From: Candidatus Gastranaerophilales bacterium
GTDB taxonomy: Bacteria; Cyanobacteriota; Vampirovibrionia; Gastranaerophilales; Gastranaerophilaceae
Direction of reading: 5' to 3'
Assembly (NCBI GenBank): GCA_944326475.1
Contig: CALVEC010000008.1
Coordinates: 1 to 64,000 of the forward strand
DNA length: 64,000 bases
Position 1 is the stretch's first letter, and the number at the start of each line of letters is the position of its first letter. The position numbers were made by a program, and so were the translations under genes. Shown here piece by piece: positions 35,275-54,374 of the stretch. Below the pieces are notes generated by a model. That model did not search any database, was not told where the DNA came from, and worked only from the letters and a program-made list of their open reading frames with translations.

Positions 35275-35655
35275 ATGCCCATAACAGATTTAAGACCAAC
35301 AAATGCCTACGGTCAAAAAACTACATTTAATAAAACTGCTTTTTTTAAACATGTTATGAACACAGCATACGACACTAATGGTGATAAAACATTAAGCACA
35401 CAAGAAAAAGAGGTAATGCAAGAAGAAGAAAAGGCGGCACGTAAGAAATTAGAAGAAATGGGAATAGATAAGAAATATTGGGACCAGGCTACAGACATAC
35501 TATTGAAAAAAGTTGATTTTTCTAAAGGTAAATTCTTTAAATATTCAGATGTTTTGAAACTGGCGGAAGGACTGTCAAATAAAGCAGGCTTTAATAAGTT
35601 AACGGAAAAGCTTGCGCAGTTCGGTAATCCAGACCCTGCATACTTTTTCAATTAA
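35275..35655 (+). CDS. Small protein with one canonical EF-hand loop
   Basis: A 126-residue soluble protein. Residues 33-44 ('DTNGDKTLSTQE') form a complete 12-residue EF-hand calcium loop with Asp1, Asn3, Asp5, Thr7, Ser9 and Glu12 in place. The remainder is helical with 'MGIDKKYWDQATDILLKKVD' and 'KYSDVLKLAEGLSNKAGFNK'. The N-terminus 'MPITDLRPTNAYGQKTTFNK' resembles other lineage-type proteins here. It sits between a repeat cluster and a bidirectional terminator. A calcium-dependent role is inferred, and no partner is known. Confidence 0.65.
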   Translation: MPITDLRPTNAYGQKTTFNKTAFFKHVMNTAYDTNGDKTLSTQEKEVMQEEEKAARKKLEEMGIDKKYWDQATDILLKKVDFSKGKFFKYSDVLKLAEGLSNKAGFNKLTEKLAQFGNPDPAYFFN

Positions 35656-35663
35656 TAACACAT

Positions 35664-35698
35664 AAAAAACACCCTCAAAAATTTGAGGGTGTTTTTTT
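35664..35698. terminator. Bidirectional intrinsic terminator
   Basis: 'ACACCCTCAAA' and 'TTTGAGGGTGT' around 'aat' with an A-run on the left and a T-run on the right. It serves both the EF-hand gene and the leftward ribosomal operon, whose last gene rplR ends 26 bases away. Confidence 0.92.
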
Positions 35699-35723
35699 AT
35701 CTTACCGGCTAAAGCCGTATTTA

Positions 35724-36092
35724 TTAGAAGTTCAAACCTGCTTCCCTTGCAGCGTCTGCGAGTGCAGCAACTCTGCCGTGATAGAGGAAGCCGCCTCTGT
35801 CAAAAACGCAGTCTTTTACGCCGGCAGCAAGTGCTTTCTTTGCGATTGCTTCGCCAACTGCTTTTGCAGATTCAATATTACCGCCGTGAGCAAGGTTTGC
35901 TTTCAGGTCTTTATCAATTGAAGAAGCTGAGCAGATTGTAACACCTTTTACGTCATCAATAAGCTGAGCGTAAATGTGTTTTGTGCTTCTGTAAACAGCC
36001 AGTCTCGGAGCTTCTGCAGTTCCTGAGATTTTGAGTCTTACTCTCTGGTGTCTTTTTCTAGTTTGTTCTTTTCTGTTTTTTGTTCCAATCAT
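35724..36092 (-). CDS. rplR: 50S ribosomal protein L18
   Basis: A 122-residue protein with '[20 protein letters not shown]', '[14 protein letters not shown]' and the end '[20 protein letters not shown]', all typical. L18 binds 5S rRNA. Unusually, it is the last gene of the cluster: rpsE, rplO and secY, which normally follow, are not there and a terminator closes the unit. Confidence 0.97.
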
Positions 36093-36171
36093 TTTTCTTT
36101 CCTTTCACCGAAGCCTTCTTACTTTGAATTTTGATTTTATACAAACATTCTATAAGGGCTTATGCCGGCTT

Positions 36172-36489
36172 TTATACTGTAACAACGAATTGTTTTGCTT
36201 CTTTTTGAACGAACTGTTCTGCCGCATTGGAGTCAATATCCTTTAACAGTGAATAATCTCTAAAGGAATTATCCGTAAATATTCTCAGCCCCTCCGGGTA
36301 TAATCCGCCGTAAGGTCTGGCGTAGGTATTAACGAACTCAACTCTGTCAACAAAAACTACGCTGCGGTTGCGAAAAGTGGTAGCCTGATCTTTTTCAATG
36401 CGTTTTTCGACTTGTTCTTTCGGGGTACTAAGCCCTTGTTTGTAACGTATATCGAATATTTTACCGAATGATACGGGATTTACTTTCAT
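36172..36489 (-). CDS. Lineage-type small protein inserted in the ribosomal operon
   Basis: A 105-residue protein with the N-terminus 'MKVNPVSFGKIFDIRYKQGL' and no ribosomal protein similarity that I can see. The middle has 'NRSVVFVDRVEFVNTYARPY' and 'GLRIFTDNSFRDY', and the end is 'KQFVVTV'. It lies between rplF (9-base gap) and rplR (80 bases) on the same strand, so it must be transcribed with them. The 'PVSFG' start is shared with other unknown proteins in the window. Function unknown. Confidence 0.75.
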   Translation of the reverse strand: MKVNPVSFGKIFDIRYKQGLSTPKEQVEKRIEKDQATTFRNRSVVFVDRVEFVNTYARPYGGLYPEGLRIFTDNSFRDYSLLKDIDSNAAEQFVQKEAKQFVVTV

Positions 36490-36498
36490 GGCTGCCCC

Positions 36499-37038
36499 TT
36501 ACTTCTTACCTGTTTTACCGGCTTTACGTCTGATGTATTCGCCTTCGTACTTGATACCTTTACCTTTGTAAACTTCAGGAGGTCTCTTTCCTCTGATTTC
36601 TGCGGCAACATCACCGACAAGCTGTTTGTTGGCACCTTTTACAGTGATTTTTGTGTTATTTTCAACAGTGATAGTGATACCCTGCGGAGGTTCTACTTTT
36701 ACGGGGTGAGAATAACCGAGCGCAAGGTTCAATACTGTACCTTCCATATTTGCACGGTAGCCGACGCCGTTGATTTCAAGTTTCTTTTCAAAACCGTGTT
36801 TTACGCCTTGAACAGCGTTATTAACGAGAGTTCTGGACAAGCCCCAGAGTGAGCGGGATTTTCTGTCGTCCTGAACTTTAGCTAATACAACGTGATTATC
36901 TTCTAATTTAACGGAAATTTCGGGGCATACAGTGACAGTCTCTGTACCGAGCGGTCCTTTGGCAGTGACGGTCTGACCGTCGATTTTAACTTCGACGCCT
37001 TCCGGAATTTCAACAGGTTTTTTACCTATACGTGACAT
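36499..37038 (-). CDS. rplF: 50S ribosomal protein L6
   Basis: A 179-residue protein started at ATG 37038 ('MSRIGKKPVEIPEGVEV'), with 'agaaggagataaaa' upstream. The frame extends ten residues farther upstream but those are not L6. Two alpha/beta repeats and the end 'RGKRPPEVYKGKGIKYEGEY' are complete. It binds near the GTPase centre of 23S rRNA. Confidence 0.97.
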   Translation of the reverse strand: MSRIGKKPVEIPEGVEVKIDGQTVTAKGPLGTETVTVCPEISVKLEDNHVVLAKVQDDRKSRSLWGLSRTLVNNAVQGVKHGFEKKLEINGVGYRANMEGTVLNLALGYSHPVKVEPPQGITITVENNTKITVKGANKQLVGDVAAEIRGKRPPEVYKGKGIKYEGEYIRRKAGKTGKK

Positions 37039-53324: not shown

Positions 53325-54374
53325 ATGTTTGATTTTAAACTCACTGACGCACAAATAATCGGCGCAATAATCTCTTACCTGCTCGGGGTTTTTATTGTTC
53401 CGTTCGTTATTTATTTTTCAAAGATAAACAACCTTGTTGACAAACCCAACGAGAGAAAAATACACCACGCCCCGATTTCAAGGCTCGGAGGAATTGCAAT
53501 CTGGCTCAGCGCAATGCTAACATTCCTCATGCTGGTTGTCTTAAGCTACTACCCGTACGGAAAACTACTGTCCGGCATACTTTTGGGAAGTTCGCTTATG
53601 TTTTTACTGGGGCTTGTAGACGATGTATTCGGTCTTAAGGCAAAATTCAAACTGCTTATTCAAATTTCAATTGCCACAATTGTATTTTTGCTCGGGGTAA
53701 GTGTTACCGCTATTTACAACCCGTTTGGCGACCCGATACAGTTAAATGCAATCTCCTCGTACATAATCACCGTTCTGTGGATTGTCGGCGTCAGCAACGC
53801 TTTGAACTTTATCGACGGCGTAGACGGACTCGCAGGCTCGATTGTAACGATTAGTGCCGTAACCCTCGGGCTTATTGCAGTCACTATTGCACCGACAAAC
53901 GCAATCAGCGCACTTATTGCGTTTATTCTGGCAGGCTCTATGCTCTCATTTTTGACCTACAACTTTCATCCCGCAAAAATATTTATGGGAGATTCCGGTG
54001 CGCTTTTCTCAGGATTTTTGCTGGCAACGCTCTCTATCACAGGCGTTATGAAAACACCGGCACTTACAATGATTGTTCCCGTATTTATTCTGTCAGTGCC
54101 GATTCTGGACATAACCTTCTCGTCTTTAAGGCGGATTTTAAAAGGCAAGTCTCCCTTCACGCCCGACGCAGAGCACATTCACCACAAACTTTTGCATGCC
54201 GGATTTTCACAAAATCAGACAGTTTTAACACTTGCAACAGTTGCGGTGGTTTCAGGCGCAATCGCGAGCTTTATCGTAAGTTCATCAGTCACAAAATACT
54301 TTATTTACGCAATTGGAATTTCTGCAATAATGCTCTTTTTGAGCTTTTTATCAAGCAGAGTGAAACGCAGCTAA
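53325..54374 (+). CDS. WecA/TagO-type undecaprenyl-phosphate glycosyl-1-phosphate transferase
   Basis: A 349-residue protein with about ten membrane spans. Signature loops: 'DKPNERKIHHAPISRLGG', 'LGLVDDVFGLKAKFKLLIQI' with the Asp pair, 'NALNFIDGVDGLAGSIVTIS', 'MGDSGALFSGFLLA' and the His-rich 'AEHIHHKLLHAGFSQNQTVL'. The family moves a sugar-1-phosphate (often GlcNAc-1-P) to the lipid carrier and starts surface polysaccharide synthesis. The 'HIHH' loop favours WecA over MraY. It is 15 bases after glyA. Confidence 0.9.
   Translation: MFDFKLTDAQIIGAIISYLLGVFIVPFVIYFSKINNLVDKPNERKIHHAPISRLGGIAIWLSAMLTFLMLVVLSYYPYGKLLSGILLGSSLMFLLGLVDDVFGLKAKFKLLIQISIATIVFLLGVSVTAIYNPFGDPIQLNAISSYIITVLWIVGVSNALNFIDGVDGLAGSIVTISAVTLGLIAVTIAPTNAISALIAFILAGSMLSFLTYNFHPAKIFMGDSGALFSGFLLATLSITGVMKTPALTMIVPVFILSVPILDITFSSLRRILKGKSPFTPDAEHIHHKLLHAGFSQNQTVLTLATVAVVSGAIASFIVSSSVTKYFIYAIGISAIMLFLSFLSSRVKRS

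Follow-up and report, generated by a model that had tools for sequence, protein, structure and literature searches.

Ribosomal protein operons are regarded as the part of a bacterial genome that is most stable and least subject to exchange, and the order rpsN, rpsH, rplF, rplR is the usual one within the spc operon. The non-ribosomal genes located in that operon, secY, adk, map and infA, are broadly conserved. An exchange confined to one of its genes has been described in the spc operon of S. pneumoniae, in which rpsN2 replaces rpsN1 by recombination (PMC8046335). Leaders of ribosomal-protein genes are likewise known; in E. coli, according to a review, rplR falls under uS8, and neither rplR nor L18 is mentioned in a paper presenting 20 new leader candidates (PMC10931766, PMC7247131). 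In the literature, no account was found of the gene and the N-terminal motif considered below, nor of an rplR/L18 leader.

The window analysed here, a stretch of 64,000 nucleotides from a Gastranaerophilales MAG, carries rpsN, rpsH, rplF and rplR in that same order with a sole departure: a minus-strand ORF of 105 codons with an ATG start, hereafter the slot gene, inserted between rplF and rplR (Table 1). The ORF is separated from the rplF stop by 9 nt and from rplR by 79 nt, its SD-like AAGGGG overlaps the rplF stop, and no promoter-like match was detected on the same strand in the rplF-rplR interval. An initial annotation of this DNA had described an unknown protein at this position, on the same strand as rplF and 9 bp from it, a description that was confirmed, and had regarded it as co-expressed with ribosomal proteins. 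The gene is indeed placed for co-transcription with the ribosomal genes, and co-transcription itself would follow from that arrangement.

Throughout, f1 denotes the family of the window genome, which consists of non-photosynthetic cyanobacteria of the gut, g1 its genus, and f2-f9 eight other families of the class. The spc operon of the window genome stops after rplR, at a terminator-like hairpin; rpsE of the same genome is located on a different contig (G000:C4:49939-50133), and in the f1 genomes examined genes other than rpsE were recorded downstream of rplR. This end of the operon (35664-35724 in the window) was observed to be a feature of the family. Also downstream of rplR lies a convergent 126-aa ORF of unknown kind (35275-35655, plus strand), of which no counterpart was found there in three congeners.

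Table 1. Features of the rplF-rplR region, with positions numbered along the window
Feature	Position	Strand	Remarks
rplF (L6), upstream flank of the slot gene	36499..37038	-	
Slot gene ('PVSFG')	36172..36489	-	Position kept; purifying selection; single copy per genome
N-terminal tail of slot protein, MKVNPVSFGK (codons 1-10)	36460..36489	-	Flexible; F8 invariant; mean pLDDT ~60, against ~90 for most of the rest
Folded domain of slot protein (codons 11-104)	36178..36459	-	Predicted, AlphaFold2
Conserved RNA hairpin with 2-nt bulge, candidate L18 leader, separate from slot gene	36107..36169	-	Match to model R1, E 3.2e-13
rplR (L18), downstream flank and final operon gene in the window genome	35724..36092	-	
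Terminator-like hairpin 3' of rplR	35664..35697	-	15 pairs plus T tail; consensus match only
Type B hairpin loci	Upstream of rplR		L021, L056, L114, L118, L119 and the majority of the g7 loci among L078-L092

The pattern of substitution clearly indicated that the slot ORF is a genuine gene under purifying selection. Changes at codon positions 1/2/3 in three g1 pairs (17/12/42, 27/20/59 and 19/14/47) exhibited an excess at the third position. The corresponding dN/dS values were 0.15 (L001/L002) and 0.10 (L002/L003), dS being saturated in the third g1 pair; those for the remaining pairs lay at about 0.07-0.3 with a maximum of 0.39, and the ratio was below 1 in every pair for which it could be estimated. 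The low sequence conservation of the frame, together with the many slots devoid of any ORF, might be taken as the mark of a spurious or decaying intergenic ORF, a reading that became practically untenable in the face of the third-position bias, the dN/dS of the compared pairs (well under 1), and the existence of two divergent types of slot protein, window-like NPVSFGKI and KVSFSGIYDIRF, that share a predicted fold and align by profile comparison (probability 96.7, E 4.5e-10). The substitution pattern combined with conservation ruled out a spurious ORF. The initial annotation had named confinement to a single genome, amid substitutional noise, as the sign of such an ORF; what was found instead was a set of relatives under purifying selection.

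Of 288 family genomes examined by plain protein search, 26 returned a match, and in 23 of these it was located between rplF and rplR; weak matches (down to E ~0.007) were counted as relatives because they occupied this same position, and the three others (L020, L022 and L027), being other or unrelated ORFs outside the slot, were dropped. Relatives on contigs CALUPY010000002.1 (74% identity) and CALUSL010000009.1 (67%) had neighbours identical in kind. Profile searches, one covering 278 family genomes and the other 192 genomes of the order, yielded a single strong match per genome, all of them in f1, and the slot was read at 38 of the 39 places identified in one of these searches. In all, rplR was located in 151 genomes of the class, 100 slots were taken from these and related genomes, and the interval following rplF was read. 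The flanks were rplF and rplR in all 50 gene-bearing f1 slots, every confident copy with flanks read being so placed and present once per genome, and no second gene was found in the slot. By way of contrast, the 24 slots read in f2-f9 were all empty, with gaps of 10-105 nt. The proposal that the gene is lineage-specific was upheld, and its position proved to be conserved.

Carriage within the family was nevertheless patchy. In an even draw, the gene was present in 23 of 80 readable f1 genomes and hence absent from around 70%, with carriers and non-carriers mixed within genera g2, g6, g7, g8, g11, g14, g18 and g35. When all slots read were considered, a larger and partly chosen set from which no overall frequency should be taken in place of 23/80, carriers per genus numbered 14/17 in g6, 7/9 in g11, 6/12 in g8, 4/9 in g14, 5/9 in g38, 3/16 in g7, 2/4 in g18, 2/4 in g2, 2/3 in g35, 4/4 in g1, 0/4 in g10 and 0/4 in g22. 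Like secY, adk, map and infA, the slot gene is a non-ribosomal gene placed for co-expression with ribosomal proteins; unlike those broadly conserved genes, it is an optional one, situated in the rplF-rplR interval. After the rplF stop, a short repeat-like sequence, GATAGCCGTTGGCGA(A/G)CG..., was also recorded in three empty slots (L091, L110 and L111) and in two carriers (L021 and L056), loci belonging to different genera.

Constrained as it is, the slot protein diverges far faster than its neighbours, dN for the L001/L002 pair being 0.15 for the slot gene as against 0.002 for rplF and 0.004 for rplR. The tree of slot proteins was in conflict with that of rplF plus rplR, and an AU test rejected a single g1 clade (p 0.02), although this p value is moderate and the tree contains long branches. 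Two mosaics were identified. At L004, the clearest case, the flanks were g1-like, with rplF and rplR 75-97% identical to g1 kin and 58-90% identical to g6, whereas the slot gene outside a variable middle of ~100 nt was 75-97% identical to g6 copies and only 32-75% identical to g1 copies; the hairpin 3' of the gene was then g1-like again. At L121, a g8 locus, the slot gene was nearest to g2 copies yet lay between g8 flanks, while in its close kin L107 the slot was empty between flanks that were mostly 85-100% identical. These mosaics show that the slot gene alone was swapped between genera, leaving its flanks unchanged. A dS of 0.09 for the slot gene of the L120/L122 pair, compared with 0.47 and 0.44 for the flanks, is as if the gene had been exchanged later than its neighbours diverged, although few sites underlie the figure.

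Between genera, identity reached 87% in the final 36 nt of rplF and ~80% in the arms of the hairpin preceding rplR, as compared with 73-75% for control stretches of rplF and rplR; with the rplF 3' end and this leader conserved to that degree, homologous exchange anchored in them is plausible. The conservation is modest, and both elements may be conserved for reasons of their own. The constant return of a swapped gene to the same slot is explained only as far as such anchors go, and repeated loss of an ancestral gene could account for part of the patchiness.

Carriage by about three genomes in ten, coupled with passage between genera, points to an optional and swappable passenger rather than a new component of the ribosome, and the slot gene is probably an exchangeable cassette that resides in a constitutive core operon and encodes a dispensable accessory protein. 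Such a gene would have no promoter of its own and would be co-transcribed with the ribosomal genes, an arrangement that would give steady, high expression; its exchange would proceed by homologous recombination anchored where conservation is higher, at the 3' end of rplF and in the rplR leader. As in the rpsN swap of S. pneumoniae, one spc gene is exchanged while its neighbours remain unchanged, but there one essential ribosomal protein is replaced by another, whereas the slot gene specifies an optional non-ribosomal protein that may be present, absent or swapped (PMC8046335). An optional, fast-evolving gene repeatedly gained, lost and swapped at one position of a ribosomal operon, with its neighbours unmoved, puts that operon to unexpected use as a platform for expression.

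Genes involved in conflict are typically patchy in distribution, quick to diverge and exchanged at a fixed site, and a single-gene anti-phage defence, a means of phage evasion or an interbacterial factor, held constitutively on by the ribosomal operon, would be in keeping with all three. Searches bearing on such a role were unrewarding: PHROG yielded weak matches only, no relative was found on viral contigs, and the lone PADLOC match (Cas3b, E 2.9e-4, in one of 20 members) is not credible for a 105-aa protein. The slot holds no second gene and dN/dS nowhere reached 1 in the estimable pairs, and a role in conflict was consequently judged rather unlikely.

The AlphaFold2 model of the window protein (mean pLDDT 86, pTM 0.75) comprised predicted elements E11-17, H24-40, E44-51, E61-72, H75-85, H87-97 and E98-104, a ferredoxin-like order; the model of the second type (pLDDT 90, pTM 0.79) exhibited an identical order of elements save for the final strand. 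The beta-alpha-beta-beta-alpha-beta order of the window model is common to Dabb/EthD, PII, CutA1 and YgiN, small ferredoxin-like proteins, although none of these emerged as a confident structural neighbour. Fold searches conducted with both models against solved and viral structures gave no match at E <= 0.001, the best-ranked matches having TM-scores at or below ~0.5, and sequence searches of Pfam, NCBIfam and PDB returned nothing convincing, including any known ribosomal or ribosome-bound family. Among 41 relatives the only invariant columns were M1 and F8, both within the N-terminal tail. That this tail is poorly ordered in the model and yet conserved suggests that it binds some partner.

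The initial annotation had envisaged a ribosome-associated or growth-linked protein, and a lineage-specific ribosome-associated or assembly factor binding near L6, L18 and 5S, and made in step with them, would accord with a same-strand position between rplF and rplR, 9 nt from rplF, that is fixed in every carrier; ferredoxin-like folds are, moreover, frequent among RNA-binding proteins. Such a role is difficult to reconcile with the absence of the gene from ~70% of family genomes, congeners of carriers included, with its movement between genera while rplF and rplR stayed unchanged, with the lack of any sequence or fold match to solved ribosome components, or with a pI that ranges from 4.5 to 9.6, charge being neither fixed nor consistently basic. 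The rate of divergence, far above that of the supposed partners, weighs in the same direction: a role near L6, L18 or rRNA is unsupported because a partner of near-invariant molecules would be expected to be more constrained. A ribosomal function was accordingly considered improbable, more so than one in conflict. As an accessory passenger, the slot protein would form a small ferredoxin-like domain and function away from the ribosome; its flexible PVSFG/VSFSG tail would dock on a partner by which other proteins of the lineage, similar at the N-terminus, are recognised as well.

Weak profile matches in other genomes fell on different, unrelated kinds of protein, with the N-termini MNVNPVSFSG, MNISPVSFTG, MKIAPVSFGK or MKINAVSFGK. 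A DNA pattern corresponding to a strict form of the motif, M-x-[IV]-x-P-[VI]-S-F-[GST], gave 26 matches in 59 family genomes as against 9 for a reversed control (p 0.003), and 23 against 9 with the slot gene itself excluded (p 0.01), the similarity in question being short. Most of these matches were proper ORFs with differing remainders, representing ~20 unrelated proteins. Within the window's own genome, strict patterns detected no protein besides the slot gene, while a looser form identified ~6 others in 864 kb; when the looser motif was limited to the first 20 residues of proteins encoded by the same 864 kb, 7 were found against 1.25 expected, a figure obtained with a regular expression tuned after its matches had been viewed. 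The suggestion that the motif links the gene to other proteins of its host thus holds for the looser forms in that genome and for a strict form across the 59, and fails for strict forms in that genome alone, leaving some support at the level of short sequence similarity for a link to other proteins of the lineage. N-termini of the form [IV]xP[VI]SF[GST] or [IVL]SFxG were observed on unrelated, mostly unknown f1 proteins at loci L159-L164 and L169-L194, and the own-genome loci bearing the short motif were L199, L203, L212, L216, L223 and L231.

A more ambitious proposition combines two elements: that M-x-[IV]-x-P-[VI]-S-F-[GST], or the shorter VSFxG, constitutes a lineage-wide N-terminal tag by which unrelated Gastranaerophilales proteins, the slot protein included, dock on a common partner; and that the interval from rplF to rplR serves as a site dedicated to exchange, at which polymorphic versions of one such client pass between genera by way of the rplF 3' end and rplR leader anchors. 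Taken as a whole, this would be speculative and is doubtful. The motif in itself provides a testable way to approach many of the unannotated proteins encoded by these uncultured gut bacteria.

The second conserved element of the interval is an RNA hairpin located directly 5' of the rplR start in most f1 genomes, whether or not the slot gene is present. Its pairing was maintained in 96.5% of cells across 41 distinct sequences, and both sides had changed in 9 of its 14 pairs, with 52 such cells recorded, shuffling yielding 10 and sliding no more than 13. Model R1 matched strongly, and once only, in each of 54 f1 genomes; no comparable match was obtained elsewhere in those genomes or in f2-f9, and Rfam had no match in the window. 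The hairpin lay ~14-25 nt before rplR at the places checked, and 72 nt before it in G022. A strongly covarying hairpin so fixed to one ribosomal gene is a candidate L18 leader, with L18 as the natural candidate ligand by virtue of its position before rplR. In being conserved, covarying and placed just before the start of a gene, it resembles autogenous leaders such as the bL25/rplY operator hairpin, which precedes the ribosome binding site (PMC10931766, PMC7247131); as a regulatory RNA for L18 it is a concrete candidate.

Since the slot gene immediately precedes this hairpin, the slot protein or its translation might conceivably act in cis through it as a regulator of rplR. That role was deemed very improbable: most genomes without the gene have the same kind of hairpin, and its sequence tracks the host rather than the gene, as exemplified by the g1-like element that follows the g6-like gene of L004. 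The 2-nt bulge of the hairpin is placed as in helix III of 5S rRNA but is mostly AA, as opposed to UC in the host 5S (UA in three g7 genomes); with the letters differing in this way, the idea of a 5S rRNA mimic, attractive at first, was retained only as a resemblance in shape.

A second form of hairpin, type B (TTGCATGTGAAGGGT...GCCCGCTAAAGCAAGTAA), was recorded before rplR at 16 loci, mainly in g7 and with little variation, and is possibly a rearranged version of the first form. Next to the 5S rRNA gene at 54083-54198 (L158, G000:C16), reading by eye also revealed 5S-like copies arranged in tandem and carrying inserts.
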